This document shows, piece after piece, positions 10,118 through 44,634 of a DNA stretch of 64,000 nucleotides. Numbering within the stretch: position 1 is the stretch's first letter; each line of letters opens with the position of its first letter. The notes below the pieces were generated by a model, which ran no database searches, had not been told where the DNA came from, and saw only the letters and a program-made list of their open reading frames with translations. The DNA comes from Solidesulfovibrio sp. (GTDB lineage Bacteria; Desulfobacterota; Desulfovibrionia; Desulfovibrionales; Desulfovibrionaceae): NCBI RefSeq assembly GCF_038562415.1, contig NZ_JBCFBA010000011.1, forward strand, positions 62,001-126,000, given 5' to 3'. The position numbers were made by a program, and so were the translations under genes.

Positions 10118-10447
10118 TTGTCAATGTGTTTTCGCCTCGGCCGCGACGTTCGCAGAGAAACCAACCCGCCATGTGGATCTTCGGCAAGAACGCCGCCCCC
10201 CAGCGGCGCCGTCAGGCAGCCTCCCCAGGCCGTCACGTACTGCTTGGCGCATTTTGACCCAATCCCTCCCCGAGGCGTCCCCTTTATACCCATGTTACAA
10301 CTAGCTGAATTGCTTAATTTAACATATGCAGACCGACGACATTTCGCCCCACCCCCCGCCTCTGTCAGTCACGGCGGGACTGTCCTTCCCCGCGCAGGCA
10401 GCCAAAGCTTTCAGGCAACTCCCTAAAATTTAAATATATTTACTAAA

Positions 10448-10509: not shown

Positions 10510-10653
10510 TCCAGTCGCAATTCCTGGAAGTTGCCTTTTCCCCCAAGACGGCAGCCCCGACGACGGGAAGAGCCCAGCGCCGTGAACGCGCTTCGCATCC
10601 GGCAGGTCGCAAGGCCAAGAGGCCAACGTATCCAACGCTCAATGGAGGATGAT

Positions 10654-24681: not shown

Positions 24682-24691
24682 GGAGGTGGCC

Positions 24692-27113: not shown

Positions 27114-27185
27114 TGTGGCGTGCGGCCCCGGCCGGAAGCCGGCCGGGGCCGCGCCCTGCGGCAACCCCCGCCTGGAGGAGACACC

Positions 27186-28181: not shown

Positions 28182-28200
28182 ACCCCGCAAGGAGAACGCC

Positions 28201-28506
28201 ATGGACACCATTCTCAAGGCCGCCTTCATCTTCATCGCCCCCGAGGCCGATCCGGCCGTCCACCGGGCCTGGACCCGCACGCCCAAGGTGCACCTGCTCA
28301 CCGTCGGCGTCGCGAACTACGCCCAGGCCGAGGCCCTGGCCAAGGAACTCGTGGACGCCGAAGGCATCGCCGCCATCGAGCTGTGCGGCGGCTTCGGCAA
28401 CGCCGGCACGGCCCGCATCGCCGCCGCCGTGCCGGTGCCGGTCGGCGCCGTGCGCTTCGACATCCACCCGGGGCTCGGCAACGTCAGCGGCGACGCCCTG
28501 TTTTAG
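28201..28506 (+). CDS. Small conserved protein of unknown function (DUF6506-like)
   Basis: A 101-residue protein beginning MDTILKAAFIFIAPEADPAVHR and containing IELCGGFGNAGTARIAAAV and VGAVRFDIHPGLG. It resembles a family of short uncharacterised proteins (DUF6506, recalled from memory). ATG 28201 has AAGGAG upstream. It is the last gene of the first aco block, ahead of the thiC gap. No catalytic motif is evident apart from a single cysteine in the conserved ELCGGFG stretch. Confidence 0.6.
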   Translation: MDTILKAAFIFIAPEADPAVHRAWTRTPKVHLLTVGVANYAQAEALAKELVDAEGIAAIELCGGFGNAGTARIAAAVPVPVGAVRFDIHPGLGNVSGDALF

Positions 28507-28557: not shown

Positions 28558-28632
28558 CGCCCCCCTGAAGCCCGACCTTTCCGTTCAGGCGACGCGGCCT
28601 GTTTCCGGCACCGCGCGCCGAAAAGGATTCCC

Positions 28633-30072: not shown

Positions 30073-30212
30073 ATCTCTGTCTTTCAGGCATGGCACGACG
30101 TCTCGTCTGCATGACAATGGACCGAAAGCAAAGGGAAACGGTCCACGGCAAGCAACCTCTCCGGTTTTCCCAGGCATAAGGCAAAAAACCTCAATACCAA
30201 GGAGTCGTGACG

Positions 30213-30992
30213 ATGGCTATTGACGGAAAAATCGCGCTGGTCACCGGTTCCGCCCAGGGTATCGGCCGGGGCATTGCATTGCGCCTGGCCGCCGACGGCG
30301 CGAATATCGCCCTCGTCGACCTCAAAAAAGACAAGCTGGCCGCCGTGGCCAAGGAAATCGAAGGCCTGGGCCGCAAGGCCACCGTCTTTGGCGCCGACGT
30401 CTCCGACCGCGCCCAGGTCTATGCCGCCATCGACCACGCCGAGGCCGCGCTCGGAGGCTTCGACATCATGGTCAACAACGCCGGCATCGCCCAGGTCAAG
30501 GCCCTGGCCGACGTCACGCCCGAGGAAATCGAACTGATCTTTCGGATCAACGTCTTCGGCGTGCTCTGGGGCATCCAGGCCGCCGCCGCCAAGTTCCTGG
30601 CCAGAAAGCGGAAAGGCAAGATCATCAGCGCCTCCTCCATCGCCGGCCACGACGGCTTCGCGCTCATCGGCGCCTACTCGGCCACGAAATTCGCCGTGCG
30701 CGGCCTGACCCAGGCCGCCGCCCGCGAGTACGCCGCCGCCGGCATCACGGTCAACGCCTACTGCCCGGGCGTGGTGGACACCGACATGTGGGACGGCATC
30801 GACAAGGGCTTCCAGAAGGTCACCGGCGCCGCGCCCAGGGAAACCTACAACAAGTACTGCGCCGGCATCGCCCTGGGCCGGCCCGAAACCCCGGCCGACG
30901 TGGCCGCCCTGGTGTCTTTCCTGGCCGGGCCGGATTCCGACTACATGACCGGCCAGGCCGTGCTCATCGACGGCGGCATGGTCTACCGCTGA
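30213..30992 (+). CDS. budC: Acetoin reductase / meso-2,3-butanediol dehydrogenase (SDR family)
   Basis: A 259-residue short-chain dehydrogenase: TGSAQGIGRGIALRLA (NAD-binding), VNNAGIAQVK, the catalytic Ser in SASSIAG and the Y-X3-K pair in GAYSATKFAV. The following stretch, with VVDTDMWDGID, matches diacetyl/acetoin reductases (BudC). It interconverts 2,3-butanediol and acetoin with NAD(H), feeding acetoin into the dehydrogenase. ATG 30213 has AAGGAG upstream. A zinc-dependent butanediol dehydrogenase at the cluster end probably handles another stereoisomer. Confidence 0.88.
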   Translation: MAIDGKIALVTGSAQGIGRGIALRLAADGANIALVDLKKDKLAAVAKEIEGLGRKATVFGADVSDRAQVYAAIDHAEAALGGFDIMVNNAGIAQVKALADVTPEEIELIFRINVFGVLWGIQAAAAKFLARKRKGKIISASSIAGHDGFALIGAYSATKFAVRGLTQAAAREYAAAGITVNAYCPGVVDTDMWDGIDKGFQKVTGAAPRETYNKYCAGIALGRPETPADVAALVSFLAGPDSDYMTGQAVLIDGGMVYR

Positions 30993-31045: not shown

Positions 31046-32407
31046 GTGAGCGTAACGGTATCGATGCCCAAACTGGGCCTGACCATGAAGACCGGCAAGG
31101 TCTCCAAATGGCTCAAGGCCGAGGGGGACGCGGTCAAAAAGGGCGAAGCCCTTTTCGAGGTCGAAACGGACAAGATCACCAACACCGTGGAGGCCCCCGA
31201 GGACGGCATCCTCTACCAGATCGTGGTGCCGGCCGGCGCGACGGTGCCGGTGGGGCTGGTGCTCGGGGTCATCGCCTCGCCGGGCGAGGCCCCCGAGCGC
31301 CTCGAGGCCGGCCAGGCCGGCGACGCCCCGGCCGGTGGCGCGGCCAAGGCGGCGGCCAGGCCGGCCAGCCCGGCCACGGCCGCCACCCCGGCCGCGCCCA
31401 GGGAAATCGTCGCCTCCCCGGCGGCCAAGCGCCTGGCCCGGGAGCTCGGGGTGGACCTGGCCACGGTCGCCGGCGGCGGCCCCGGCGGGCGCATCCGGGA
31501 AGAGGACGTCACCGCCCATCACGAGGCCGCCTCGAAACTCCCGAAAATCACCCCCCTGGCCGCGGTCATCGCCGCCAAGGCCGGCCTCGACATCCGCACC
31601 GTCACCGGCACGGGCGAGCGCGGCAAGATCACCCGCGAGGACGTGGAGCGGGCGCTCCATCCCGAATCGGCCGAAACGCCGGCGCCGGACGCCGCCGCCG
31701 CGACGGGCGCGACCGCGGAGGTGACCGTGGTGCCCATGACCGGCCTGCGCCGGGCCATCGCCGACAACATGGCGGCCAGCCTGGCCCAGGCGGCCCAGTT
31801 GACGCTTATAACGGAAGTCGACGCCACCGAAAGCCTGGCTTTCCTGGCCACCGTGCGGGCCATGCACCAAAAGGACCCGTCGTTTCGGGTCTCCGTAAAC
31901 GACATCCTGATCCTGGCCACCTCCCGGGCGCTGACGCGCTTCCCGATGATGAACGCGACCCAGGTCGGCGACGACATCCATATCCACGCCGACGTCAACA
32001 TGGGCGTGGCCGTGGCCATCGAGGGCGGGCTCATCGTGCCGGTACTGCGCGCGGCCCACAGGAAAAGCCTGACCCGGATCGCCCGCGAGGCCCGGGAACT
32101 CGCCGGCAAGGCCCGCACGGGCAGCCTCACCGCCGACGACCTGGCCGGCGGCACCTTCACCATCTCCAACATGAGCCGCTCGCCGGTGGATTTCTTCACC
32201 CCCATCCTCAAGCCCACCGAGACGGGCATCCTGGGCGTGGGCCGCGTGGTGGACAAGCCGGTGGTCCGCAAGGGCGAGATCACTATCCGCTCCATGATGG
32301 GCCTGAGCCTCACCTTCGACCACCGGGTCATCGACGGCGCCCCGGCCGGCGAATTCCTGAAACTGTTGTGCCAGTACGTGGAGCAGCCCTCGCTCATTTT
32401 GTTCTAA
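31046..32407 (+). CDS. Dihydrolipoyl acetyltransferase E2, copy 2, with two peripheral-subunit-binding domains
   Basis: A 453-residue E2 starting at GTG 31046 (CGGAGG upstream). Lipoyl domain 1-80 with EVETDKITN; then two E3/E1-binding domains in tandem (AAKRLARELGVDLATVAGGG and AAVIAAKAGLDIRTVTGTGE, each followed by an R/K-I-R/T-EEDV-type end); then the catalytic domain with FDHRVIDGAP (HXXXDG intact). The first E2 has only one binding domain. It sits between the acetoin reductase and E3 and so may form a second core or mixed core. Substrate difference between the two E2 proteins cannot be told from sequence. Confidence 0.9.
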   Translation: MSVTVSMPKLGLTMKTGKVSKWLKAEGDAVKKGEALFEVETDKITNTVEAPEDGILYQIVVPAGATVPVGLVLGVIASPGEAPERLEAGQAGDAPAGGAAKAAARPASPATAATPAAPREIVASPAAKRLARELGVDLATVAGGGPGGRIREEDVTAHHEAASKLPKITPLAAVIAAKAGLDIRTVTGTGERGKITREDVERALHPESAETPAPDAAAATGATAEVTVVPMTGLRRAIADNMAASLAQAAQLTLITEVDATESLAFLATVRAMHQKDPSFRVSVNDILILATSRALTRFPMMNATQVGDDIHIHADVNMGVAVAIEGGLIVPVLRAAHRKSLTRIAREARELAGKARTGSLTADDLAGGTFTISNMSRSPVDFFTPILKPTETGILGVGRVVDKPVVRKGEITIRSMMGLSLTFDHRVIDGAPAGEFLKLLCQYVEQPSLILF

Positions 32408-32454: not shown

Positions 32455-33831
32455 ATGTACGATGTGATCGTGATCGGCGGCGGCTCGGGCGGCTACGCGG
32501 GGGCCATCAGGGCCTCGCAACTCGGCGGCAAGGTCGCGCTTATCGAAGGCGGCCAGATGGGCGGCACCTGCGTCAACCGGGGCTGCATCCCGAGCAAGAT
32601 CTGGCTGCACGCCGCCGCCATCCTGGACCAGACCCGCAAGGCCGGCGAATTCGGCATCAAGGCCTCGGTCGATGCCCTCGACCTGGCCGCCATCACGGAC
32701 CGCAAGAACGGGGTGTCGAGCGACATCCGCATGGGCATGGAGGCGTTGCTGCAAAACAACGGCGTGGACGTCATCCGCGGCCGGGGCACGCTCAAAAGCG
32801 GGAGGGAAGTCCTGGTCGACGGCCAGGTCGTTGCCGGCAAAAACATCATCATCGCCACGGGCAGCTCCCTGGCCGTCCCCGACGTGCCCGGCCTGGCCGA
32901 GGCGGCCTGGACCAGCGACCAGCTCCTGGAGGCCACGGCCATCCCGGCCTCGGTCCTGGTGACCGACCCCGGCTTCATCGGCGTCGAGTTGGCCTTCCTG
33001 CTGGCCGTGTTCGGGGCCAAGGTGACCATCGCCGTGCCCACGCCGCGCATCCTGCCGGCCGAGGACCAGGACACCAGCCAGCGCCTCGCCCAGTCCCTGC
33101 GCGAACGCGGCGTCACGATCCTCACGCGCCAGACCCTGGCCTCGGTGGCCCCGGCCGGCGACGGCTTCGCCTGCCTGCTGTCCGGCAACGGCAAGGAGCA
33201 GGCCGTGGAAGTGGCCAAGGTGCTCGTCTCCACGCGCAAACCCAACGTCGAGGGCCTTGGCCTGGAAGCGCTCGGCATCAAGCGCAAGGACGACGGCGGC
33301 ATCGCGGTCGATGACCGCCTGCGCACGGCCGTGCCCACGGTCTACGCCATCGGCGACGCCACCGGCGGGCTGATGCTCAGCCACGGCGCCTCCTCCATGG
33401 CCGTGTGCGCCGCCGAGAACTGCCTGGGCCAGGGCGGCAAATACGCCGCCCACCTGGTGACCCGGGCCCTGTGGACCGTGCCGCAGATGGGCGCGGTGGG
33501 CCTGTCCGAGGAAGAGGCCGAGAAGCGGGGCCTCAATGTCGAGGTCGGCGGCTTCCCCTACTCCATCAACGGCTACGCCATGCTGCGCGGCGAGGTGGAC
33601 GGCGCGGTGAAAATCGTCACCGACGCGGATACCGGCGAGATCCTCGGCGTGCACATCGTCGGCGGCGCGGCCACCGAAACCATCGGCGAGGCGGTGCTCG
33701 CCATGCAGCTCGAATGTACCGTGGCCGAGCTGGCCCGGGGCATCCGCGTCCACCCGGCCTTTTGCGAGACCGTGGTCGACGCCGCCCGGGACGCCGCCGG
33801 TTGGGCCCTGTACCTGCCCAGGCGTTCGTGA
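32455..33831 (+). CDS. lpdA: Dihydrolipoamide dehydrogenase-like E3 with altered NAD-binding motif
   Basis: A 458-residue flavoprotein. FAD site VIVIGGGSGGYAGAIRASQLG and redox-active disulfide GGTCVNRGCIPSK are canonical, and the C-terminal His-Glu pair is present in HPAFCETV. The NAD domain is unusual: where E3 proteins read GGGYIGLE or similar, this reads TDPGFIGVE, so the first glycine of GXGXXG is Asp, and the acidic residue ending the second strand (VTVVE in others) is replaced (VTIAVPTP). Dithiol oxidation should work, but binding of NAD as electron acceptor is doubtful. ATG 32455, GAGGTG upstream. It follows E2 copy 2 and precedes the lipoate genes. Confidence 0.85.
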   Translation: MYDVIVIGGGSGGYAGAIRASQLGGKVALIEGGQMGGTCVNRGCIPSKIWLHAAAILDQTRKAGEFGIKASVDALDLAAITDRKNGVSSDIRMGMEALLQNNGVDVIRGRGTLKSGREVLVDGQVVAGKNIIIATGSSLAVPDVPGLAEAAWTSDQLLEATAIPASVLVTDPGFIGVELAFLLAVFGAKVTIAVPTPRILPAEDQDTSQRLAQSLRERGVTILTRQTLASVAPAGDGFACLLSGNGKEQAVEVAKVLVSTRKPNVEGLGLEALGIKRKDDGGIAVDDRLRTAVPTVYAIGDATGGLMLSHGASSMAVCAAENCLGQGGKYAAHLVTRALWTVPQMGAVGLSEEEAEKRGLNVEVGGFPYSINGYAMLRGEVDGAVKIVTDADTGEILGVHIVGGAATETIGEAVLAMQLECTVAELARGIRVHPAFCETVVDAARDAAGWALYLPRRS

Positions 33832-33934: not shown

Positions 33935-35500
33935 ATGCGAGCGATCCCCACTGCGGACGGCCAATCCCCCATCACGGACCTCGACGTGACGGAACTCGGG
34001 CTTGTCCCCTACGACACGGCCCTTGCGCTCCAACGGCGCCTCGTCGACCGGCGCATCGCCGACGAGGCCCCGGACAGGCTCCTGCTCCTCGAACACCCGC
34101 CGGTGATCACCCTGGGCACGGGCGGCGACGAAGCCGACGTCGTGGCCGACGCGGTCACGCTACGGGAAAAAGGCGTGGCCGTCATGCGTACGGAACGCGG
34201 CGGCAAGGCCACCTTCCACGGCCCCGGCCAACTCGTGGCCTACCCCATCCTCAAGCTGCGCGAAAAGGACCTGCACGCCTATTTGCGGCGCATGCTCGAC
34301 GTGGTGGCGGCGCTGCTCGCCTCCTACGGCCTTTCGCCCCGACTCGGGCTTCGCGGCCCGGGGGTGTGGGTCGACGGGGCCAAGATCGCCAGCATCGGCC
34401 TGGCCGTGCGCAAATGGGTGACCTTCCACGGCGTGGCGCTCAACGTGAACACGGACCTCGGCTGGTTTTCGCTGATCACCCCCTGCGGCTACGCCGGGGA
34501 ACGCATGACCTCCATGCGGGAGCTTTTGGGCGAGCCCATGGACATGGACGACGTCACGGCGCGTTACGTGCGGGAGTTCCGCCGGGTTTTCGGCTACCCC
34601 CGGCCGGCTTGCCGGGGTTCCCGACTCCCCGCCCGGCCGGACTGGCTGCGTGTGCCGGCCCCCGATCCGGCCCCGGCCGGTCGCATGGAGGCCCTGCTTA
34701 CCCGCCTGCATCTCGGCACGGTCTGTCAGGAAGCCAACTGCCCCAACATCGGCGAGTGCTTCAGCCGGGGCACCTCGACCTTCCTGATCCTCGGCACGGT
34801 CTGCACGCGCGGCTGTCGCTACTGCGCCGTGGAAAAGGGCCTGCCCCGGCCGTTTGATCCGCGGGAGCCGGAGCGCGTGGCCCGGGCCGTGGCCGCCCTT
34901 GGCCTGCGCCATGCCGTGGTCACCTCGGTCACCCGCGACGACCTGCCCGACGGTGGAGCCGAACAGTTCGCCCGCACCATCGCCGCCATCCGAAAGCACT
35001 GCCCGGACACCACCGTGGAAGTGCTCGTGCCCGATTTCGCCGGCAGCGCATCGGCCCTGGACACGGTCCGCCAGGCCCGGCCCGACGTGTTTAACCACAA
35101 CATCGAGACCGTGCGCCGCCTGTTTCCCACAGTGCGCCCCAAGGCGGACTACGCCCTGTCCCTGGCTATCCTTGGCCGGGCGGCCGCCGCCGGGCTCGCC
35201 GTCAAATCCGGGCTCATGCTCGGGCTTGGCGAAACCGACGCCGAGATCGCCGCGACCCTCGGCGACCTGCGCGCCGCCGGCTGCCGCCAAGTGACCCTGG
35301 GCCAGTACCTCGCCCCGACACCCGCCCACGCCCCCGTCGAGCGCTATGTCACGCCGGCCGCCTTCGCCGCCTGGGCGGACACGGCCCGGGCCATGGGTTT
35401 CGACGACGTCGCGGCCGGGCCGCTGGTGCGCAGTTCCTACCGGGCCGAGGCCATGCTGCGGCCACGGCCGACGGCAACCGACCGGGCGCGGGTCGCCTGA
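33935..35500 (+). CDS. lipBA: LipB-LipA fusion: octanoyltransferase and lipoyl synthase in one chain
   Basis: A 521-residue protein. Residues about 1-225 are LipB: RGGKATFHGPGQLVAYPI, the catalytic Lys in GAKIASIGL and the acyl-accepting Cys in TPCGYAGERMTSM. Residues about 235-510 are LipA: the auxiliary-cluster motif CQEANCPNIGEC, the radical SAM motif CTRGCRYC, and the C-terminal RSSYRAE that completes the auxiliary cluster. Thus both transfer of octanoate from ACP and double sulfur insertion are encoded together. Both active sites look intact; separate genes are the rule. It serves the lipoyl domains of the two E2 proteins and perhaps the GcvH-like carrier downstream. Confidence 0.92.
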   Translation: MRAIPTADGQSPITDLDVTELGLVPYDTALALQRRLVDRRIADEAPDRLLLLEHPPVITLGTGGDEADVVADAVTLREKGVAVMRTERGGKATFHGPGQLVAYPILKLREKDLHAYLRRMLDVVAALLASYGLSPRLGLRGPGVWVDGAKIASIGLAVRKWVTFHGVALNVNTDLGWFSLITPCGYAGERMTSMRELLGEPMDMDDVTARYVREFRRVFGYPRPACRGSRLPARPDWLRVPAPDPAPAGRMEALLTRLHLGTVCQEANCPNIGECFSRGTSTFLILGTVCTRGCRYCAVEKGLPRPFDPREPERVARAVAALGLRHAVVTSVTRDDLPDGGAEQFARTIAAIRKHCPDTTVEVLVPDFAGSASALDTVRQARPDVFNHNIETVRRLFPTVRPKADYALSLAILGRAAAAGLAVKSGLMLGLGETDAEIAATLGDLRAAGCRQVTLGQYLAPTPAHAPVERYVTPAAFAAWADTARAMGFDDVAAGPLVRSSYRAEAMLRPRPTATDRARVA

Positions 35501-35551: not shown

Positions 35552-37396
35552 ATGCACGTCGACGACACGATTTCCCTTAGCCGGATCGCCAGGACCGGCA
35601 ACCGGCGCGCCGGGCCGCTCCTGGCCGGCCTGGCCTGTCTGGCCGCCCTGTGCGCTTGGCTCTGGCCGGGGACGGCCCGGGCTTCCTGGCTGATCGACCA
35701 GGCCCGCCTGCACGCCTCGGCCCACGGGAGCCTGGGCTGCGCCGGCTGCCACGGCGACATCGTCCCCGGTGCCGGCCATCCCGACCCGGCCGATGTCACC
35801 AAGCCCCTGGCCGCCTTTTTTCGGGCCGACCAGTGCCTGGGCTGCCACGCCGACGTCGGCGGCGACCTGGAAAAGGGCGTCCACGGCGGCAAGCCCCTGG
35901 AAGCCGGCCGGGACTACGGCCTGTGCATCGGCTGCCACGACCCGCACACGCAACTGGCCTCCAAGCTCCCGGCCGGTTTCGACCCGGCCAAGCCCGTGAC
36001 GGCCCAGTGCGGCGCCTGCCACGAAAAACGCCGGGAGCTGCCCGCCCCGGCCAAGGACGACGCGGCCTGCCTGTCCTGCCACCGGCAGATGGCGCCAAGC
36101 GAACCCGGCCGCCGCGAGGCCGTGGACACGCTGTGCCTCGGCTGCCACGGCGCCAAGGCGGTCCGGGGCGCACCGGCCGTACCGGCTGGCCTCGACATGC
36201 CCGTCCTCGACAAGGCCGCCCAGGCCGCCGCCACGCACAAGACGTTGTCGTGCCTGGACTGCCACGTGGACGGCGCCCGCTTTCCCCACGACCGGCAGCA
36301 ACGCGCCGCCTGCGCCACCTGCCACGCCCGCCACGACGAGAAGACGATCCACGACGCCCACCAAAGCGTCACGTGCGAGGCCTGCCACCTCTCCGGGACG
36401 ACGCCCGTCAAGGACGCGGCCACGGGGACGATCGTCGCCAGGCGCGACAAGGCCCCCGCACCGCTGGCCGTGCATGCCATGACGCTGCCCGCCGGCGAAG
36501 CCTCCTGCCGCCGCTGCCACGTCCCGGGCAACGCCCTCGGCGCGGCGGCCATGGTCCTGCCGGCCAAGGGCGTCATCTGCCTGCCCTGTCACGCCGCCAC
36601 CTTCTCCGTGGCCGACACCACGAGCCGGCTGTCGCTGCTGGTCTTCGCCGGCGGCATGGCCGTCCTGGCCGCCTTCTGGTTCTCGGGCGCGGGCCTTGGC
36701 GCCCGGTCCGAAACCGGACACGGCGGGGACAGCACCGGGGCCGGGCATGGCGGGCACGGCGCCCGGTCCATCGACTGGGCGCGGCTGGGCGACACGATCC
36801 TCTACGACATCTTCCTGCAACGCCGGCTCTACCGGCAATCGCGATCGCGCTGGGCCATCCACGCCCTGATCTTCTACCCCTTCGTGCTGCGCTTCCTGTG
36901 GGGCCTGGCCGGCCTGCTCGGGTCGCTCTGGACTCCCCGGGCCGGGTGGCCGTGGATGCTCCTGGACAAGAACAACCCCGTGGGCGCCTTGGTGTTCGAC
37001 GCAAGCGGCCTGGCGCTTTTGGCCGGCCTTATCCTGGCCGGCGTGTCCTGGCGGCGCCGCCGGGACGGCGAGGCGCCGGTGACCGGCCTGCCCGGCCGCG
37101 ACTGGCCGGCCCTGGTTCTGCTTGGCGCCCTGGTGCTCGTCGGCTTCGTCCTGGAAGGGATGCGCATCGCCATGACCGGCTGGCCGGCCGGCTCGGGCTG
37201 GGCCTTCCTGGGCTACGCCCTGTCTCGGGCCTTCGCCGCCGACCCGGCCGGCCTGACCGGGCCGTACGGCTACGTCTGGTACGCTCACGCCATCCTGACC
37301 GGGCTGGTGGTGGCCTACCTGCCCGCCAGCCAGTTGCGCCACGCCCTGACCGCGCCCCTGGCCCTGCTGGCGCGGGCTCTCGGCAAGGAACAATAA
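35552..37396 (+). CDS. 11-CXXCH periplasmic cytochrome c fused to a NarI/HdrE-like membrane domain
   Basis: A 614-residue protein. After a signal/anchor segment (about residues 22-46, ending TARAS) come eleven CXXCH heme-c motifs (CAGCH, CLGCH, CIGCH, CGACH, CLSCH, CLGCH, CLDCH, CATCH, CEACH, CRRCH, CLPCH) up to about residue 350. From about 365 the protein is membrane-embedded, with about five hydrophobic segments and histidines suited to heme b (WAIHALIFYPFVLRF, YAHAILTGLV, LRHALTAPL), resembling the gamma subunit of nitrate reductase and HdrE. This joins cytoplasmic/quinone-level electron transfer to periplasmic hemes. It is directly followed by a lipoyl carrier and an HdrD-like protein, its likely partners. 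Confidence 0.85.
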   Translation: MHVDDTISLSRIARTGNRRAGPLLAGLACLAALCAWLWPGTARASWLIDQARLHASAHGSLGCAGCHGDIVPGAGHPDPADVTKPLAAFFRADQCLGCHADVGGDLEKGVHGGKPLEAGRDYGLCIGCHDPHTQLASKLPAGFDPAKPVTAQCGACHEKRRELPAPAKDDAACLSCHRQMAPSEPGRREAVDTLCLGCHGAKAVRGAPAVPAGLDMPVLDKAAQAAATHKTLSCLDCHVDGARFPHDRQQRAACATCHARHDEKTIHDAHQSVTCEACHLSGTTPVKDAATGTIVARRDKAPAPLAVHAMTLPAGEASCRRCHVPGNALGAAAMVLPAKGVICLPCHAATFSVADTTSRLSLLVFAGGMAVLAAFWFSGAGLGARSETGHGGDSTGAGHGGHGARSIDWARLGDTILYDIFLQRRLYRQSRSRWAIHALIFYPFVLRFLWGLAGLLGSLWTPRAGWPWMLLDKNNPVGALVFDASGLALLAGLILAGVSWRRRRDGEAPVTGLPGRDWPALVLLGALVLVGFVLEGMRIAMTGWPAGSGWAFLGYALSRAFAADPAGLTGPYGYVWYAHAILTGLVVAYLPASQLRHALTAPLALLARALGKEQ

Positions 37397-37481
37397 ACGA
37401 CGCGCCCGCGCGCCGCCCTGTCGCGGCAGCGGGCGCCCAACCGACAACCGCCAAGGCCACGCGCCGCCAAGGAGACCGCAT

Positions 37482-37907
37482 ATGGACATCGCCGGCTACA
37501 ACATGCCCGAGGATCTCTACTACGACACCTACCACTTCTGGACCCGCGTCGACGGCGACCTGCTCGTCATGGGCATGGACGACTTCGCCGAGAAGCTGGC
37601 CGGCCAGATCGTGTTCGTGCAGCTGCCCTTCGAGGGCAAGGCCGTGGTGGCCGGCAAGAAGTTCGCCAAGATCGAATCCGGCAAGTGGCTCGGCACGGTC
37701 TACGGCCCGGTGGACGGCGAGATCGTCGGCGTCAACCAGGACCTGGAGTCCAACCCGGCCCTGATCAACCAGGACTGCTACGGCGCCGGCTGGATGTACC
37801 GGATTCGGCCCAAGGACCCGGGGCAACTGAGCCGGCTCATCCACGGCGGCCGGGACGTCCTCGAACCTTGGCTTGCCGCGGACATCAAGAAATTCAAGCA
37901 GGACTAG
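37482..37907 (+). CDS. GcvH-like lipoyl carrier protein (LbpA-like)
   Basis: A 141-residue single lipoyl domain protein. The modification site is IESGKWLGTVYGPVDGEI, with Lys 68 expected to carry lipoate; FVQLPFEGKAVVAGKKFAKI and a C-terminal YRIRPKDPG are GcvH-like. No glycine cleavage P or T protein is nearby; instead the next gene is HdrD-like, starting one base after the stop, and the previous is an HdrE-like cytochrome. This resembles the setting of lipoate-binding proteins (LbpA) that serve sulfur-oxidising Hdr-like complexes. A role as mobile dithiol electron carrier is an inference. ATG 37482 has AAGGAG upstream. Confidence 0.8.
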   Translation: MDIAGYNMPEDLYYDTYHFWTRVDGDLLVMGMDDFAEKLAGQIVFVQLPFEGKAVVAGKKFAKIESGKWLGTVYGPVDGEIVGVNQDLESNPALINQDCYGAGWMYRIRPKDPGQLSRLIHGGRDVLEPWLAADIKKFKQD

Positions 37908-37908
37908 C

Positions 37909-39096
37909 ATGCGTCAGACAGCCTTTCCCCTTGCCCGACGCCTGGACATGGCGGCTTGCGCCTCCTGCCGGCTGTGCGTCGACGTCTGTCCGGCCGTGGC
38001 CGCGACCCGGGACGGCTCCCTGTCGGCCCTTGGGCGCATGAAGGGCCTTAGGGACCTGCTGCGGCGCCGGGGCGGCCTGTGGCGCAGGCTGTTGCGCCTG
38101 CCCGAGCCCACGCCCGAGGAACTCAAGGCCTTCGGCGCCTCGGTCTTTCGCTGCTCGCTGTGCGGCGGTTGCCAGGAGGTCTGCCCCCTGGGCATCCAGC
38201 TCAAGGAGCTGTGGCTGTCGCTACGGGAAGAACTCGTGCGCACGGGCAACAACCCCAAAAAAATCGAGATGATCCGCGACAACCTCGAAGAGAGCCGCAA
38301 CGTCTTCGCCGAGGACAACGCCGAACGGGCCGACTGGGTCGACGACATGCGCGATCCGCCGGACGACGGTTTCCAAAAGGACACGGCCGAGGTGGTCTTT
38401 TTCACGGGCTGCGTGGGGGCCTATTTCCCCCTGGCCCAGAAGATCCCCGTGGCCTTGTGCGAGATCTTCCAGGCAAGCGGCGTGGACTTCACCCTGCTTG
38501 GGGCCGACGAATGGTGCTGCGGCTTTCCGCTGGTCGGCGCCGGGCTTGGGGAAGGGCTGCCGGCGTTCATCGAGCACAACGTGGCGGCCGTGGCGGCCAA
38601 GGGCGCACGCCAAGTCGTCTTCACCTGCCCGTCCTGCTACCAGATCTGGCGCGAGGCCTATCCCCAGCGCTTCGAGCTTTACCACGCCTCGCAGTTTCTG
38701 ACCGACCTGGTGGCCGCCGGCAAGGTGCCGCTCAAACCCCTGGAGATGACCGTGACCTATCACGACCCCTGCGACCTGGGGCGCGGGGCGCGGGTTTTCG
38801 ACGCCCCGCGCGATGTCCTTCGGGCCATCCCGGGGCTGACCCTGGTGGAGATGGGCCACAACCGCGAAAACTGCCTGTGCTGCGGCGGCGGCGGCAACCT
38901 GGAGATGCTCGACGCCGAACTGTCCGCGGCCATGGCCAAGCGCAAGGTCGAGGAGGCCGTGGCCACGGGGGCGCAGGCCGTGGTCACCACCTGCCAGCAA
39001 TGCGTGCGCACCATGACCACCTATGCCCGGCGCAACAAGGTGGCCATCGAGGTGCTGGACCTGACCCAACTGGTGCGGCGGGCCCTGGCCGGCTAG
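37909..39096 (+). CDS. HdrD/GlpC-like iron-sulfur protein with two CCG domains
   Basis: A 395-residue protein. Two 4Fe-4S ferredoxin motifs CASCRLCVDVCP (residues 17-28) and CSLCGGCQEVCP (about 82-93), then two CCG (cysteine-rich) domains: the first with GCVG, EWCCGF and CPSC, the second with DPCD, CLCCGGGG and CQQC. In HdrB/HdrD such domains bind non-cubane 4Fe-4S clusters that split or form disulfides. It is translationally tied to the lipoyl carrier gene (one base between stop and ATG). A job in dihydrolipoyl oxidation with electrons passing to the cytochrome membrane protein is likely but inferred; GlcF- or LutA-like function is an alternative. Confidence 0.82.
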   Translation: MRQTAFPLARRLDMAACASCRLCVDVCPAVAATRDGSLSALGRMKGLRDLLRRRGGLWRRLLRLPEPTPEELKAFGASVFRCSLCGGCQEVCPLGIQLKELWLSLREELVRTGNNPKKIEMIRDNLEESRNVFAEDNAERADWVDDMRDPPDDGFQKDTAEVVFFTGCVGAYFPLAQKIPVALCEIFQASGVDFTLLGADEWCCGFPLVGAGLGEGLPAFIEHNVAAVAAKGARQVVFTCPSCYQIWREAYPQRFELYHASQFLTDLVAAGKVPLKPLEMTVTYHDPCDLGRGARVFDAPRDVLRAIPGLTLVEMGHNRENCLCCGGGGNLEMLDAELSAAMAKRKVEEAVATGAQAVVTTCQQCVRTMTTYARRNKVAIEVLDLTQLVRRALAG

Positions 39097-39123: not shown

Positions 39124-40689
39124 ATGCGGACATGGCGACTGCTGGATTTGCCGCCCCTGACGGCGGCGGAGAACATGGCCCTGGACGAGGTGCTGCTGGA
39201 GCTCAAGGGCGAGGGGGCGGACGTGCCCAACACCCTGCGGTTTCTGCAATTTTCACCCCGGGCCGTGCTGGTCGGCTTCCACCAGTCGGTGGCCGAGGAG
39301 GTCCGGGTGTCCTACTGCCGGGACAACGGCATCGACATCAACCGCCGCATCACCGGCGGCGGGGGCCTGTTGTTCGACGAGAGCCAGATCGGCTGGGAAA
39401 TCATCTGCGACAAGGCCTTCTTCGACCTGGTGGTGCCCACGGACCGGTTGTTTCGCGAATTGTGCCGGCCCGTGGTCGCGGCCTTGCGGGCCATGGGCAT
39501 CGACGCCCGGTTCCGCCCCCGAAACGACATCGAGGTGGCCGGCCGCAAGCTCTCGGGCACGGGCGGCACCGACCACGAGGGGGCCTTCCTCTTCCAGGGA
39601 ACGCTGCTGACCGACTTCGACGTCGAAACCATGCTCAAAAGCCTGCGCATCCCGGTGGAAAAGCTCAAGGCCAAGGAGATCGACTCGGTTAAAAAGCGCG
39701 TGACCTGCCTGGCCTGGGAACTGGGCCGCGCCCCGGAGCCGGCCGCGGTCAAGGCCGCCCTGGCCCGGGCCTTCGCCCGCCACCTGGGCGTGCGCCTGGA
39801 GCCGGCCGGGCTCACCCCGCAGGAGAAGCGCCTCCTGGCCGAGCGCCTGCCCTCTTTCCGCTCCAAGGAGTGGATCGACCTGGTCAACCCGAAATACGAG
39901 AAGACCGAGGTGGTCCAGGCCGCCTACAAGTCGCCAAACGGCCTGGCCCGCTTCACCCTGGCCGTCAACCTGCCCCGCAAGGTCCTCAAGAACGTCTTCA
40001 TCACCGGCGACTTCCTGTCCTTTCCCAGCCGGGCGCTTTTTGACCTGGAGGCGGCCCTGCGCGGCCTGCCGCTTAACGCCGACGTCCTGTGCGGCGTCAT
40101 CCACCGCTTTTTCGACGAAGGCCGCATCGCCATCCCGGGCATGGAGGCCGAGGACCTGTGCAAGCCCGTGCGCCAGGCCCTGGAAAAGGCCGCCATCGCC
40201 CGCCACGGCATCCCGCTCGAATACTGCAACCAGATCAGCCTGACCAACGGCAGCTTCGACGAGGTCATCGCCCGAAAGCCCTCGGCCCTGCTGCTGCCCT
40301 ACTGCTCCAAGCTCAAGGACTGCGACCTGCGCTTTACCAAGGACTGCCGGGCCTGCGGCGAATGCACCGTGGGCCAGGCCTGGGCCATGGGCCGGGAGCG
40401 CAACATGCGAAACGTCTGCGTCACCAGTTTCGAGGACCTCATGGCCGAACTGGCCGGCCTGCGCCAGGCCGGGGCCCGGGCGTTCATCGGCTGCTGCTGC
40501 CAGCCCTTTTTCACCAAGCACGTGGACGACTTCGCCAGGGCCGGCCTGCCCGGCATCCTGGTCAACATCGACGACACCACCTGCTACGACCTGAGCCAGG
40601 AGGACGAGGCCCACCAAGGCACCTTCGCCAGCCAGACCCACCTCAACCTCGGCCTGCTGGCCGCCGTGCTGGACGCGGCCCGGGCCTGA
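39124..40689 (+). CDS. sLpl(AB): sLpl(AB)-type lipoate:protein ligase with C-terminal DUF116 domain
   Basis: A 521-residue protein. Residues 1-240: LplA-like ligase core with RRITGGGGLLFDES and the catalytic Lys in VAGRKLSGTGGTDHEGAFLFQG. Residues about 255-335: an LplB-like accessory domain. Residues about 370-515: a cysteine-rich DUF116-like domain (LPYCSKLKDC, CRACGECTVG, FIGCCCQPF, DDTTCYDL) that may bind an iron-sulfur cluster. Bipartite sLpl(AB) ligases attach octanoate or lipoate to GcvH-like carrier proteins in the LipS1/LipS2 pathway; the next three genes are that pathway. GGAGG precedes ATG 39124. Confidence 0.8.
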   Translation: MRTWRLLDLPPLTAAENMALDEVLLELKGEGADVPNTLRFLQFSPRAVLVGFHQSVAEEVRVSYCRDNGIDINRRITGGGGLLFDESQIGWEIICDKAFFDLVVPTDRLFRELCRPVVAALRAMGIDARFRPRNDIEVAGRKLSGTGGTDHEGAFLFQGTLLTDFDVETMLKSLRIPVEKLKAKEIDSVKKRVTCLAWELGRAPEPAAVKAALARAFARHLGVRLEPAGLTPQEKRLLAERLPSFRSKEWIDLVNPKYEKTEVVQAAYKSPNGLARFTLAVNLPRKVLKNVFITGDFLSFPSRALFDLEAALRGLPLNADVLCGVIHRFFDEGRIAIPGMEAEDLCKPVRQALEKAAIARHGIPLEYCNQISLTNGSFDEVIARKPSALLLPYCSKLKDCDLRFTKDCRACGECTVGQAWAMGRERNMRNVCVTSFEDLMAELAGLRQAGARAFIGCCCQPFFTKHVDDFARAGLPGILVNIDDTTCYDLSQEDEAHQGTFASQTHLNLGLLAAVLDAARA

Positions 40690-40697
40690 GGACCGCC

Positions 40698-41762
40698 ATG
40701 GAAACGTTGCGCTGCGACGTGCTGGTGGTGGGGGCGGGGCCGGCCGGGTCGTGCGCCGCCCGGGAGGCGGCCAAGGCCGGGGCGGACGTCCTCGTGGTCG
40801 AGCGCCGCCGCCGGGTGGGCCTGCCCGTGCAGTGCGCCGAATACATCCCGGCGCCGCTTGTGGGCGAGGCCGGCGTCGGGCGCGGCTACGTCGTCCAGGA
40901 AGTGGCCGGCATGCGCACCTGGCTCCAGGGCGGCCTCATCCAGGAACTGCCCGCCCCGGGGCTCATGATCCGCCGCGACCGCTTCGACCAGGCCCTGGCC
41001 GCATCGGCCAGCCAGGCCGGGGCGCGCCTGCTCCTCGGCACCGCCGCCATCGCCCTGTCCGGCCGGTGCCTTGCGGCCACGGACGCGGGCGGCCGGCAGT
41101 TGGCCATCACCGCCAGGGTGGTCGTCGGCGCCGACGGCCCCCACTCCCGCATCGGCCGGGCCATCGGCTCGGCCAACCGCCACTGCCTGCCCGCCGTGCA
41201 GTTCCGGGTGCGCCTGACGCGGCCGCTGACCCACACCGAGGTCTTTTTCGACGACCGCATCCGCGGCGGCTACGCCTGGCTGTTCCCCAAGGGCGAACAG
41301 GCCAACCTGGGCCTGGGCATGCTGCGCCCCGGCCCGGGCCTGCCCGGGATCGTGGCCGTGCTGCGCGCGCTTTGGGCCGAACTGCGGGCCAAGGGCCGCA
41401 TCGCCGGCGAACCGCTGGGGAGCTGCGCCGGCTGGATTCCGGCCGAGGCGCCGCGCCGCGTCGTTGCCGGCGGCGTGCTCCTGGCCGGGGACGCCGCCGG
41501 CCATACCCATCCCATAACCGGTGCCGGCATCTTCCAGGCCGTCCTGGGCGGCAAGATGGCTGGCGCCTGGGCGGCCCGGGCCGCCCTTTCCGGCGATACC
41601 GGCCTGCTCGCCGGCTACCAGGACGCATGGGACGATTTTTACGGCGAGACCCTGGCCCGGGCCCATGTCCGGCGACAGTTGCTGGAAAGCCGCCCGGGCG
41701 ATCTGGAATCCGTCATCCGGCGCTGCTGGGTGGGCTTTCGGGAGTATTATGCGGACGCTTGA
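40698..41762 (+). CDS. lipT: LipT-like FAD oxidoreductase (geranylgeranyl reductase family)
   Basis: A 354-residue flavoprotein with VLVVGAGPAGSCAAREAAKAG at the N-terminus and the second FAD motif LLAGDAAGHTHPITGAGI. It belongs to the geranylgeranyl reductase family in sequence type, but its place between sLpl(AB) and the two radical SAM lipoyl synthases matches LipT, the flavin reductase thought to support LipS1/LipS2. ATG 40698 lies eight bases after the sLpl(AB) stop, and the 3-prime end overlaps the next gene by 14 bases, so they are a translational unit. Confidence 0.75.
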   Translation: METLRCDVLVVGAGPAGSCAAREAAKAGADVLVVERRRRVGLPVQCAEYIPAPLVGEAGVGRGYVVQEVAGMRTWLQGGLIQELPAPGLMIRRDRFDQALAASASQAGARLLLGTAAIALSGRCLAATDAGGRQLAITARVVVGADGPHSRIGRAIGSANRHCLPAVQFRVRLTRPLTHTEVFFDDRIRGGYAWLFPKGEQANLGLGMLRPGPGLPGIVAVLRALWAELRAKGRIAGEPLGSCAGWIPAEAPRRVVAGGVLLAGDAAGHTHPITGAGIFQAVLGGKMAGAWAARAALSGDTGLLAGYQDAWDDFYGETLARAHVRRQLLESRPGDLESVIRRCWVGFREYYADA

Positions 41763-42693
41763 AACGCGGCTTGCCCAGGCCCGGGAACTGTCCTTCGCAC
41801 ACCACGGGAAACGCATCGGCTTCCACCTGCCGGGCATGTTCACCGTGGGCGCGACCCGGGGCCGCTACCCGGCCGTCTCCATTACCGGCGACGCCTGCGC
41901 GCTCACCTGCGACCACTGCCGGGGCAAACTCCTGTTACCCATGATCAAGGCCATGACCCCGCAGTCCCTGGTGGAGAAATGCCTGGCCCTGGAGGCGGAC
42001 GGGCATCTGGGCGTGCTTGTCAGCGGCGGCTGCGGCCCGGACGGCGACCTGCCCTGGGAGGCCTTCCTGCCGGCCCTGGCCGCGGTCAAGGCCACGACGA
42101 GGCTCACCGTCTCCGTGCACAGCGGCTTCGTCGACCGGGAGACCGCCCGGGGCCTCAAGGCGGCCGGCGTGGACCAGGCACTCGTCGACGTCATCGGCAG
42201 CGACGACACCTACCGCGCCGTCTACCACGTGGACGGCGGGCTCGCCCGCCTGGAGGCGTCGCTGGCCGCCCTGACCGGGGCCGGGCTCCCCGTCATTCCC
42301 CATATCGTGTGCGGCCTGCACTACGGCGAGTTGCGCGGCGAAGCCCGCGCCCTGGACATCGTGGCCGAAATCGACCCGGACCTGGTCGTCATCCTGTCGC
42401 TCATGAACCTGCCGGGCACGCCCATGGCGCGCGTGGCACCGCCGCCGGCCGAAGCCGTGGCCGAGTTGCTCATCGCCGCGCGGCTGCGCCTGCCCCGGGC
42501 GCAAATGAGCCTCGGCTGCGCCCGGCCCCGGGGCGGCGAGCGCCTGGAGACCCTCGCCGTGGCGGCCGGCGTCAACCGCCTGGCCCTGCCCTCGGACGCG
42601 GCCCGGCAGCGGGCCGCAGAACTGGGACTGGCCGTCGACTACCGCCGGACCTGCTGTTCGGTGCGCCACGGCCCGACCGAAAACCCGTGGTGA
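41749..42693 (+). CDS. lipS1: Radical SAM lipoyl synthase component (LipS1-like)
   Basis: A 314-residue radical SAM protein: SITGDACALTCDHCRGK holds the CX3CX2C cluster motif (about residues 50-57), preceded by GFHLPGMFTVGATRGRYPAV. Cysteines in LGCARPRGG and the C-terminal TCCSVRHG could bind the auxiliary cluster needed as sulfur source. It is of the COG1856 type, unrelated to LipA beyond the radical SAM core. Paired with the next gene it probably inserts sulfur at C6/C8 of the octanoyl group on the carrier protein. Which of the two genes is LipS1 and which LipS2 is assigned from gene order and is not certain. GGAG precedes ATG 41749. Confidence 0.68.
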   Translation: MRTLETRLAQARELSFAHHGKRIGFHLPGMFTVGATRGRYPAVSITGDACALTCDHCRGKLLLPMIKAMTPQSLVEKCLALEADGHLGVLVSGGCGPDGDLPWEAFLPALAAVKATTRLTVSVHSGFVDRETARGLKAAGVDQALVDVIGSDDTYRAVYHVDGGLARLEASLAALTGAGLPVIPHIVCGLHYGELRGEARALDIVAEIDPDLVVILSLMNLPGTPMARVAPPPAEAVAELLIAARLRLPRAQMSLGCARPRGGERLETLAVAAGVNRLALPSDAARQRAAELGLAVDYRRTCCSVRHGPTENPW

Positions 42694-42752: not shown

Positions 42753-43820
42753 ATGGAACCGCTGGAAGCGTCGCGACACGCCACCCCGAACGATCCCTTG
42801 CGGGAAAGCCCGACCTATCTCCGCCTGAGCCTGGCCGCCGCCATGACCCTGGGCTTCGCTCCGGGGCTCTTCTACCGCGACGCGCGGCTTTCCTGCATCA
42901 ACCTGCTTTTGACCTACGCCTCGGGCTGCGCCGCCCGCTGCGCCTACTGCGGCCTGTCCGGCGAGCGGCCGGACGGGGCGGGCGGACAAAGCTTCATCCG
43001 CGTCACCTGGCCCACGCATTCCCTGGACGACATCACCCAAGCCATCGCCGCGCGCCGGGACCGGGTCAAACGCATCTGCATCTCCATGCTGACCAACCGC
43101 CGCTGCGCCCGGGACACGGAAACCGTCTGCCGCCGGCTGCGCCAACGCTTCGACATCCCGGTGTCGCTGCTCGTCTCGCCCACGGTCATCGACCGCGACG
43201 ACCTGCTGGCCTTCAAGAAGGCCGGCGCGGACAAGGTCGGCGTGGCCATCGACCTGGCCACCCCGGAACTCTTCGACCGCTACCGGGGGGCCGGCGTGGG
43301 CGGCCCCCACCACTGGGACGCCTATTGGCGCTGCCTGGGCCAGGCCATCGACATCTTCGGCCGGGGGTTCGCCGGCGCCCATTTCATGGTCGGCCTGGGC
43401 GAGACCGAGGCGGACATGTGCGCCGCCATGGCCCGGGTGCGGGAGATGGGCGGCAACACCCACCTGTTCTCCTTTTTCCCCGAACCGGCCTCGGCCCTGG
43501 CCGACCACCCCCAGCCGCCCATGGAACAATACCGCCGGGTGCAGCTGGCCCGCTACCTCATCGACGCCGGCCGGACCCGGGCCGAGCGCTTCGCCTACGA
43601 CGAGGCCGGCCGGATCGCGTCCTACGGCCTGCCCGGGGACGTCATCCAGGCGGTCGTGGCCTCGGGCGAGCCCTTCCGCACCAGCGGCTGCACCGGCTAC
43701 GACGGTACGGTCGCCTGCAACCGGCCCTACGCCAATTCGCGGCCGGGGCCGGACATCCGCAACTACCCCTTCAAGCCCGACCGCAACGACATCCGACGCA
43801 TCCGCCGGCAGATGAGGTAG
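42753..43820 (+). CDS. lipS2: Radical SAM lipoyl synthase component (LipS2-like, biotin synthase-related)
   Basis: A 355-residue radical SAM protein of the biotin synthase-related COG2516 type. It contains RDARLSCINLLLTYASGC, then AARCAYCGLSGERP (the CX3CX2C motif spans GCAARCAYC), FIRVTWPTHSLDDI, VGLGETEADM and a late CTGYDGTVACNRPYAN that may ligate a second cluster. ATG 42753 is chosen because GGAG lies nine bases upstream; a GTG at 42690 directly at the previous stop has none. The next gene, thi4, starts seven bases after the stop. Role as in LipS1 entry, inferred from family and neighbours. Confidence 0.68.
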   Translation: MEPLEASRHATPNDPLRESPTYLRLSLAAAMTLGFAPGLFYRDARLSCINLLLTYASGCAARCAYCGLSGERPDGAGGQSFIRVTWPTHSLDDITQAIAARRDRVKRICISMLTNRRCARDTETVCRRLRQRFDIPVSLLVSPTVIDRDDLLAFKKAGADKVGVAIDLATPELFDRYRGAGVGGPHHWDAYWRCLGQAIDIFGRGFAGAHFMVGLGETEADMCAAMARVREMGGNTHLFSFFPEPASALADHPQPPMEQYRRVQLARYLIDAGRTRAERFAYDEAGRIASYGLPGDVIQAVVASGEPFRTSGCTGYDGTVACNRPYANSRPGPDIRNYPFKPDRNDIRRIRRQMR

Positions 43821-43827: not shown

Positions 43828-44634
43828 ATGCCCCTGGACGAACGCATCATCACCGAAGCCATCCTCGAAACCTATTGCGCCAAGTTCAAGTCGTGCCTCG
43901 ACCTCGACACGGCCGTTGTCGGCGGCGGCCCCTCGGGGCTGGTCGCGGCCATGCTCCTGGCCCGGGAGGGCTTCAACGTCGCCCTCTACGAACGCAAGCT
44001 GTCCCTGGGCGGCGGCATGTGGGGCGGCGGCATGACCTGGAACGTCATCGTGGTCCAGAAGGAGAGCCTGCGGCTACTCACCGACGTGGGCGTGCCGGTG
44101 ACGCGCTTTCGCGACGGCTACTACACGGCCGATGCCCCGACCGCCGCCTCGACCCTGGCCGCGGCCGCCTGCCAGGCCGGGGTCAAGGTCTTCAATTGCG
44201 TCAGCGTCGAGGACGTGGTGCTGCGCGAGGTCGACGGGGCCAAGCGGGTGACCGGGCTGGTGCTCAATTCCTCGGCCGTGGAACTGGCCGGCCTGCACGT
44301 GGACCCGCTGGTGGTGGGCGCCCGGTACGTCATTGAGGCCACGGGCCATGCCGTGGAGGTGCTCAAGACCCTCGTGCGCAAAAACGACGTGGAACTGCTC
44401 ACGCCAAGCGGCGGCATCGAGGGCGAACAGTCCTTGTGGGCGGAGGTGGCCGAAACCAACACCCTAAGAAACACCCGGGAGGTCTTCCCGGGACTCTACG
44501 TGGCCGGCATGGCCGCCAACGCCAGTTTCGGCTCCTACCGCATGGGCCCGATCTTCGGCGGCATGCTGCTTTCCGGCGAAAAGGCCGCCCGGGAAATCGC
44601 CGGCAGGCTGCGCGACCGCCACGAACACGCGTAG
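43828..44634 (+). CDS. thi4: Thiazole synthase Thi4, sulfide-dependent type
   Basis: A 268-residue Rossmann protein: TAVVGGGPSGLVAAMLLAREG and YERKLSLGGGMWGGGMTWN are hallmarks of Thi4, which makes the ADP-thiazole precursor of thiamine from NAD, glycine and sulfide. Yeast Thi4 donates sulfur from an active-site Cys in a CCMDP stretch; here the equivalent reads GLHVDPL with His, as in methanogen enzymes that use free sulfide catalytically. This fits a sulfide-producing anaerobe. It begins seven bases after lipS2, in the same block. With thiC it supplies both halves of thiamine for the TPP-dependent E1. Confidence 0.88.
   Translation: MPLDERIITEAILETYCAKFKSCLDLDTAVVGGGPSGLVAAMLLAREGFNVALYERKLSLGGGMWGGGMTWNVIVVQKESLRLLTDVGVPVTRFRDGYYTADAPTAASTLAAAACQAGVKVFNCVSVEDVVLREVDGAKRVTGLVLNSSAVELAGLHVDPLVVGARYVIEATGHAVEVLKTLVRKNDVELLTPSGGIEGEQSLWAEVAETNTLRNTREVFPGLYVAGMAANASFGSYRMGPIFGGMLLSGEKAAREIAGRLRDRHEHA

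Follow-up and report, generated by a model that had tools for sequence, protein, structure and literature searches.

A GcvH-like lipoyl carrier conserved with a multiheme membrane cytochrome and an HdrD-like CCG protein, a candidate electron shuttle

What might a GcvH-like lipoyl protein do when its gene lies between those of a membrane cytochrome and an HdrD-like iron-sulfur protein? The question is raised by a 64,000-nucleotide stretch of Solidesulfovibrio sp. (contig NZ_JBCFBA010000011.1; G000:C11:62001-126000 in our files), hereafter the window, whose coordinates are used throughout. A first-pass annotation of its sequence had delimited a three-gene unit at 35552-39096, the products of which we call Cyt, LbpX and HdrD, LbpX being our name for the carrier (Table 1). 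Gene positions and conserved gene order bear out both the unit and its end points, and a single base does separate the carrier gene from the next one, as it had noted (the last base of LbpX is 37907 and the ATG of HdrD is at 37909). The unit is real and widely conserved, not a chance assembly. At a probability of about 0.6, we favour a shuttle role for LbpX: a dedicated carrier, soluble and lipoylated, it would bring electrons from cytosolic dehydrogenases to an HdrD-Cyt membrane complex that resembles DsrMK. The electrons handed to this heme-rich complex would probably stem from acetoin or hydroxy acids as these are broken down.

The C-terminal membrane domain of Cyt has a NarI/EtfD-type fold, its clear fold matches being EtfD and NarI. 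The annotation had called the protein an HdrE/NarI-like cytochrome; its 11 hemes, b/c membrane type and likeness to NarI stand, and the HdrE label is to be corrected to EtfD/NarI. Neither HdrE nor DsrM is among the fold matches listed for Cyt, an absence that does not by itself speak against either. The CCG partner was correctly recognized. Both full C..CC..CxxC motifs of HdrD are intact, as for non-cubane clusters, and their cysteines, like those of its two C..C..C...C motifs, do not vary among 12 aligned members. HdrD nevertheless scores below every curated CCG cut-off (TfrB 169/385, DsrK 96/400, TmcB 81/735 and HmcF 64/750 bits), its best score being to TfrB. TfrB is part of an enzyme that oxidizes two thiols to a disulfide. 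Because of this best score, and because a lipoyl carrier is encoded beside CCG proteins, dithiol/disulfide exchange appears the most economical reading. Cyt and HdrD together match the two halves of a single solved protein, EtfD (PDB 9ojn). A predicted structure of HdrD was poor (mean predicted local distance difference test score 61.5) and was not used.

LbpX belongs to the GcvH family, with 120 bits against GCV_H PF01597 and 124.8 against NF002270 (cut-off 117); against TIGR00527 it reaches 101.8, below the cut-off of 115.85. Its lipoyl lysine, Lys68, is kept in 12/12 aligned proteins, and the motif [EQ][ST]GKWxG occurs in 67/67 distinct LbpX sequences. The sole cysteine of the window's LbpX, Cys99, lies at +31 from this lysine; a Cys is found there in 63/67 LbpX proteins, and is the only one in 61/67. 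The H proteins inspected have Pro at this position.

The carrier was also considered as an ordinary H protein of the glycine-cleavage system. The window's genome has only two GCV_H matches, LbpX and a protein encoded on contig C4, and its GcvP matches are confined to C4, where gcvPA and gcvPB lie beside this separate gcvH (GcvT was not searched). LbpX is thus neither linked to GcvP nor the genome's only GcvH, and the dedicated carrier that the annotation had proposed is upheld. The C4 H protein carries ESVKAAS in place of the ESGKW of LbpX; the former motif is found in 19/19 distinct GcvP-adjacent H proteins, all from the window's family, and other H proteins have ESVKAVS, ESTKAVS or ESAKSVS. 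In 19 further genomes, 11 of which harbour the module, GcvP is accompanied by at least one H protein in 19/19 cases, and an H protein adjoins GcvP in 11/11 of the module-bearing ones. A tree of 103 rows groups 63 of the 68 LbpX rows with one more ESGKW protein, from the genome of L070, in one clade (99/99), and the 20 GcvP-adjacent H proteins in a separate clade (100/98) that leaves LbpX outside. The separate gcvH-gcvP set, the H proteins of the other genomes and this tree together rule out an ordinary GcvH. The window's family also has GcvH-like paralogues that are neither GcvP-adjacent nor LbpX-type (L168, L172, L174-L176 and L178, on short stretches).

How conserved is the unit? A search for Cyt in 247 genomes of the order identified 12 positives, one among the 10 of the window's genus and 11 from one other genus of the same family. 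With only 1/10 in the window's genus against 11 in the other, the genes were possibly gained by transfer. The order AcoC-Lpd-LipBA-Cyt-LbpX-HdrD-sLpl-LipT-LipS1-LipS2 is kept in 11/11 relatives, preceded by the SDR gene in 9/11. When the LbpX motif was searched for as a degenerate DNA pattern, the 12/247 Cyt genomes were all matched and the remaining 235 were not, a reversed-pattern control giving 0. Since this pattern was built from LbpX sequences, it is the absence elsewhere that provides the test; among 58 ESGKW loci tested, it misses three Chloroflexi carriers. At the level of the phylum (395 genomes), the motif was found in 41 genomes (control 0), Cyt in 35 and both in 29 (Fisher 1e-28, kinship not corrected). 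In 21 of these 29 genomes, motif and Cyt are at most 5 kb apart; in the remaining 8 they lie on different contigs, and some Cyt matches may therefore be paralogues.

The set was widened by a scan with the HdrD alignment, which gave 79 named loci; once the order's 11 loci had been added and three duplicates dropped (L027, L031 and L032, on the same contigs as L055, L082 and L078), 87 loci were tabulated. The counts below refer to the 66 in which HdrD is at least 50% identical, 21 of the 87 falling under that value. On the HdrD tree, the window protein falls with 65 of the 66 loci in a clade (66 rows, 100/99) that excludes the other 20 CCG rows; L077 is not on the tree, as its open reading frame (ORF) fell outside the cluster used. 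LbpX is present in 63/66 loci (62 by a distance rule, plus L052, missed by it). The distance from LbpX to the HdrD gene downstream is no more than 400 bp in 59/66; LbpX is the next scored gene upstream of HdrD in 60/66, where it is itself preceded by Cyt (39), by GlcF2 (19) or by a contig edge (2). L064 is counted in the latter total only, because an unscored ORF of 558 residues separates LbpX from HdrD. Among the three loci without LbpX, L046 begins at a contig edge, LbpX is encoded elsewhere in the genome of L070, and L066 is discussed below. The gene order deviates in L052, L064, L080 and L113.

These loci fall into two settings. In the window, the core unit is embedded in an acetoin-dehydrogenase supercluster that extends over about 22 kb and encodes two lipoylation systems (LipB-LipA and sLpl/LipT/LipS1/LipS2); the unit first described, correct in its end points, is thus part of a larger one at about 23.4-45.8 kb. 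Among the 66 loci, 27 have Aco genes or Lpd (the aco setting), 21 have GlcF2, a second CCG protein, and 18, several of them short, have neither. The FAD-linked oxidase GlcD accompanies GlcF2 in 18 of the 21, typically in the order Cyt-GlcD-GlcF2-LbpX-HdrD-ligase; four loci of this setting encode the lactate racemase LarA and some a TRAP transporter. Of the 49 loci whose upstream sequence spans 4.5 kb or more, 16 have GlcF2 only, 26 Aco/Lpd only and none has both (Fisher 7e-8, without correction for kinship). Loci of the two settings do not separate on the HdrD tree, where starred branches require 7 or more changes of the aco label and 6 or more of the GlcF2 label, counted on the tree that includes non-core rows. 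This intermixing is why the module seems to have swapped its dehydrogenase partner more than once.

From the conserved unit, the lipoyl-lysine motif, the intact CCG motifs, the EtfD-like pairing of Cyt with HdrD and the exchange of dehydrogenase partners, we infer the lipoylation of LbpX, the formation of a complex, its redox chemistry and the direction of flow as follows. A cytosolic dehydrogenase module would reduce the lipoyl disulfide of LbpX. The reductant in the window's genome would most likely be the acetoin-dehydrogenase E3 (Lpd), fed by dihydrolipoyl-E2 or NADH, and in other genomes GlcF2, the CCG protein of a GlcD/GlcF2 2-hydroxyacid dehydrogenase. Dihydrolipoyl-LbpX would then dock on HdrD, whose CCG [4Fe-4S] sites would oxidize the dithiol, and the electrons would pass through the ferredoxin-type clusters of HdrD to the heme b domain of Cyt, and from there to menaquinone and/or the 11 periplasmic hemes c. 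The system would work by analogy with DsrC-DsrMK, the lipoyl arm replacing the cysteines of DsrC. LbpX would receive its lipoyl group from the ligase encoded downstream, either sLpl together with LipS1/LipS2 or an enzyme of the LplA type, and LipB-LipA would serve E2.

The energetics of this path depend on the setting. Menaquinone stands at about -0.07 V and lactate at about -0.19 V. The lipoamide/lipoyl potential is given as -0.29 V (PMC6067878; this and the other papers cited are taken from excerpts of their texts). Electron transfer from LbpX to menaquinone would thus be downhill and that from lactate to LbpX uphill, so that the GlcD/GlcF2 setting would need a pull or the opposite direction. 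In such a reverse flow, LbpX would be reduced through Cyt-HdrD by menaquinol or the periplasmic hemes, with the help of the proton-motive force, and Lpd would make NADH from dihydrolipoyl-LbpX. The uphill step from lactate to the lipoyl group fits an energy-driven reaction, and Lpd is part of the conserved block. However, acetoin oxidation itself yields NADH, so that more of it would hardly be needed in the aco setting, and Lpd was detected in 0/21 GlcF2 loci, some of which are short. We therefore hold reverse flow to be unlikely. Its direction is nonetheless that proposed for LarG, a lipoyl carrier encoded near the act operon of Pelobacter carbinolicus, in the excerpted text of a 2012 paper (PMC3543383).

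The distribution of lipoylation genes bears on a different role for LbpX. LipB-LipA was found in 22/27 aco loci, 0/21 GlcF2 loci and 1/18 of the others, and a ligase lies at most 1.5 kb downstream of HdrD, in both settings, in 42 of the 51 loci whose sequence continues for 1.6 kb there. As LipB-LipA tracks the aco setting while the ligase occurs in both, gene order suggests that the former serves E2 and the HdrD-linked ligase LbpX, a suggestion weakened by the shortness of GlcF2 contigs. Alternatively, LbpX might be a lipoyl-assembly scaffold that charges the E2 of acetoin dehydrogenase, like GcvH in the LipM/LipL relay, with Cyt-HdrD as a separate respiratory complex. Such GcvH relays are known (PMC10332631, excerpt), and LbpX is encoded near AcoC and two lipoylation systems. 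Nevertheless, the 21 GlcF2 loci have the module, with LbpX and HdrD still adjacent and no Aco gene or Lpd detected, and LipB-LipA is available for E2. The scaffold role is disfavoured by the loci in which no Aco gene was detected, and we consider it very unlikely.

Several observations weigh against the shuttle. Seven of the 49 loci have neither setting, and 9 of the 51 have no ligase nearby. LipS1-like and LipS2-like proteins score best to these families yet do not reach the curated equivalog cut-offs, and sLpl likewise stays under its NCBIfam cut-off. Six genomes of the phylum have Cyt but not the motif, and 12 the motif but not Cyt. Five LbpX rows, from Bacillota and Chloroflexota, are not part of the main LbpX clade, and the ESGKW-like proteins L186 and L191 (QSRKW), which are not tied to the unit, are on the H-protein side of the tree; the LbpX motif and the LbpX clade are therefore not identical. 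Intact CCG motifs are not special to partners of LbpX, as at least two are present in 90/93 ORFs of the CCG cluster, whether LbpX-linked or not. The uphill step from lactate belongs here too. Finally, in L066, a metagenome-assembled genome (MAG), Cyt is directly followed by HdrD (8177-11209) with no LbpX between them, and the PF01597 matches of this genome, MAG gaps being possible, comprise an ESTKAVS H protein only and no ESGKW protein.

L066 would agree with a scheme in which a flavoprotein or E3 feeds HdrD-Cyt directly, in the manner of EtfD or GlpC, and LbpX is a regulatory or minor partner. So would the EtfD match of Cyt and HdrD, the function of EtfD presumably showing that a NarI-CCG pair can take electrons with no lipoyl protein, which is a further point against the shuttle. 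GlcD also lies beside a CCG protein with no LbpX in the stretch in L094, L097, L107 and L108. In 11 relatives, though, LbpX is better conserved than Cyt (74-79% versus 44-50% identity to the window protein), which, with its presence in 63/66 loci, makes direct feeding improbable.

The first-pass annotation had drawn a parallel with sHdr-LbpA, the closest experimentally known association of a GcvH-like protein with CCG proteins, together with LipS1/LipS2/sLpl (PMC6067878, PMC10332631, excerpts). Here as there, a single GcvH-like lipoyl protein is encoded beside a CCG protein, with its own ligase and LipT/LipS1/LipS2 nearby; the lipoyl lysine is conserved, and the sLpl/LipS1/LipS2 genes are found, at scores under the NCBIfam cut-offs. 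According to the excerpted text of PMC6067878, LbpA proteins have conserved cysteines near both termini and a hdrC1B1A-hyp-hdrC2B2 cluster. In contrast, LbpX lacks a conserved pair of N- and C-terminal cysteines, and the conserved block has a membrane multiheme HdrD/Cyt pair and carbon catabolism genes around it, without hdrC1B1A-hyp-hdrC2B2 (not searched as a set genome-wide). By these published traits LbpX is not an LbpA, although it may work in a similar manner. The annotation's overall interpretation is thus partly supported, its unit, dedicated carrier, CCG partner and cytochrome being retained and its HdrE label and sHdr-LbpA parallel corrected; the acetoin-dehydrogenase setting, the two adjoining lipoylation systems and the alternative GlcD/GlcF2 setting had escaped it. 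Should LbpX instead be a sulfur carrier of the sHdr type, it would bind sulfane sulfur that HdrD oxidizes or reduces. The association with LipS1/LipS2/sLpl would suit this role; the cysteine pattern of LbpX, the missing hdr gene order and the settings of acetoin and hydroxyacid catabolism (the search did not extend to TusA, DsrE and rhodanese genes) disfavour it, and we regard it as highly doubtful.

The proposed shuttle can be compared with other known systems. DsrMK(JOP) and DsrC combine a NarI-like b subunit, a CCG protein and c hemes with a small sulfur-redox partner protein, a likeness to Cyt-HdrD-LbpX that extends to the DsrK score of HdrD. They differ in that a lipoyl carrier takes the place of DsrC here and the hemes c are fused to the b subunit. 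EtfD, whose electron donor we take to be ETF, combines a NarI-like and a CCG domain in one chain, but its matched parts have no c-heme domain. The partner of LarG is the act complex, presumably alternative complex III. Among published ideas, LarG comes nearest to the LbpX shuttle: in 2012 this GcvH-like lipoyl carrier was suggested to ferry electrons, by way of a disulfide, between that membrane complex and Lpd, with flow towards NAD (PMC3543383, excerpt); we compared it by description, not by sequence. In the same text, the acoABCSL genes of P. carbinolicus resemble the window's cluster in E1/E2/E3, lipoyl synthase, thiamine genes, acoX and AcoR, but no LbpX, HdrD or Cyt is named there, LarG lying near the act operon instead. 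No paper on the LbpX-HdrD-multiheme unit was found among the open-access articles listed, most subscription papers being outside that search. As far as our searches reach, the unit is undescribed, and Hdr-associated lipoyl carriers as a kind are already known.

Lipoate serves as a swinging arm inside the complexes that act on 2-oxoacids, acetoin and glycine, and a part in sHdr sulfur oxidation has been known since 2018 (PMC6067878, excerpt). The gene set studied here occurs in sulfate-reducing bacteria and their kin. If the shuttle exists, a lipoyl protein outside any such complex would supply electrons to a respiratory chain, a function new for this universal cofactor, and would open a route into the membrane for NADH-level, perhaps lactate-level, electrons in sulfate reducers; it would also help to explain LipS1/LipS2 outside sulfur oxidizers. 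The gene order and partner data make the question directly testable in named strains, for example Desulfocicer vacuolatum DSM 3385 (L080, aco setting) and Desulfocarbo indianensis (L087, GlcD/GlcF2 setting).

To cover other families, 20 stretches were taken from the motif matches of the phylum; they include several core loci again, and L250 is on the same contig as L076. A CCG protein or HdrD/GlcF homologue lies alongside LbpX in 19/20; in the exception, L252, LbpX adjoins sLpl, LipT, LipS1 and LipS2. In L240-L242, LbpX occurs with HdrD and a NarI-like protein having no c-heme match, and L245 and L246 have the order LbpX-LarA-GlcD-GlcF2. The ESGKW carriers of L243 and L244, from another family of the phylum, are beside genes that we read as HdrC/HdrB/HdrA-like. 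In L248, L249 and L110 (Bacillota), a GlcD-like flavoprotein and HdrD are encoded between two ESGKW-type carriers; these loci also have sLpl, LipT, LipS1 and LipS2 and no Cyt match. Somewhat short of an even chance, in our estimate, protein-bound lipoate might be a general respiratory redox currency. A family of ESGKW carriers would exchange electrons with CCG proteins and so connect membrane cytochromes with the dehydrogenases for acetoin and 2-hydroxyacids, possibly with others, and in some lineages also with soluble HdrABC; sHdr-LbpA would be one specialized branch.

Table 1. Positions of Cyt, LbpX, HdrD and the surrounding genes in the window
Feature	Position	Strand	Remarks
Cyt	35552..37396	+	614 residues; 11 CxxCH (residues 63-347) and NarI/EtfD-like heme b membrane domain (about 322-614)
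LbpX	37482..37907	+	141 residues; GcvH-family lipoyl carrier; Lys68 in ESGKWLG; Cys99
HdrD-like	37909..39096	+	ferredoxin motifs and two CCG domains; Fer4_8 match
AcoR-like sigma-54 activator	21012..23096	-	opposite strand to cluster
AcoC1, second E2 with lipoyl domain	23440..24681	+	start approximate; lipoyl-domain match G000:C11:85449
Lin0512-family protein	24686..25114	+	
AcoA, E1 alpha	25129..26091	+	named from sequence reading; start approximate
AcoB, E1 beta	26142..27113	+	named from sequence reading; start approximate
AcoX, NAD-kinase-like	27120..28181	+	start approximate
DUF6506 protein	28108..28506	+	start approximate; recurs in aco-context clusters
ThiC, thiamine biosynthesis	28600..29907	+	start approximate
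SDR (short-chain dehydrogenase/reductase), acetoin/butanediol-type reductase	30207..30992	+	named from sequence reading
AcoC2, E2 with lipoyl domain	31046..32407	+	start approximate; lipoyl-domain match G000:C11:93055
Lpd, dihydrolipoyl dehydrogenase (E3)	32455..33831	+	named from sequence reading; conserved in block
LipB-LipA fusion, octanoyltransferase and lipoyl synthase	33935..35500	+	
sLpl, lipoate-protein ligase (LplA-B_cat) with C-terminal DUF116	39124..40689	+	
LipT-like FAD oxidoreductase (GG-reductase superfamily)	40698..41762	+	named by gene order as in PMC10332631
LipS1-like radical SAM	41749..42693	+	208 bits, curated cut-off 230
LipS2-like radical SAM	42753..43820	+	211 bits, curated cut-off 270; start approximate
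Thi4-family thiazole synthase	43828..44634	+	
2,3-butanediol dehydrogenase-like alcohol dehydrogenase	44724..45758	+	named from sequence reading; start approximate

Among the surrounding genes, AcoC1 and AcoC2 account for the two strongest lipoyl-domain matches of the genome (PF00364, 66.8 and 72.5 bits), two others being weaker at 29.6 and 23.9. The genome has three LplA/B-type enzymes, LipB-LipA, in which LipB and LipA are fused in one protein, sLpl, and a 328-residue LplA-type protein encoded on another contig. The DUF116 domain of sLpl spans residues 383-489 and contains several cysteines. ThiC and Thi4 are both encoded inside the acetoin cluster, Thi4 not having been found in the stretches of the 11 relatives of the order; E1 requires thiamine diphosphate. 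A search of plasmids for sHdr-LbpA sequences gave none identifiable as such. L148, plasmid pACF1 of Acidithiobacillus ferrooxidans, codes at 787-1233 for a GcvH-like protein with ESGKWAG and N- and C-terminal Cys, whose tree placement is unsure. Its gene lies between hemerythrin genes, 1.9 kb upstream of a gene annotated as Hdr-related.

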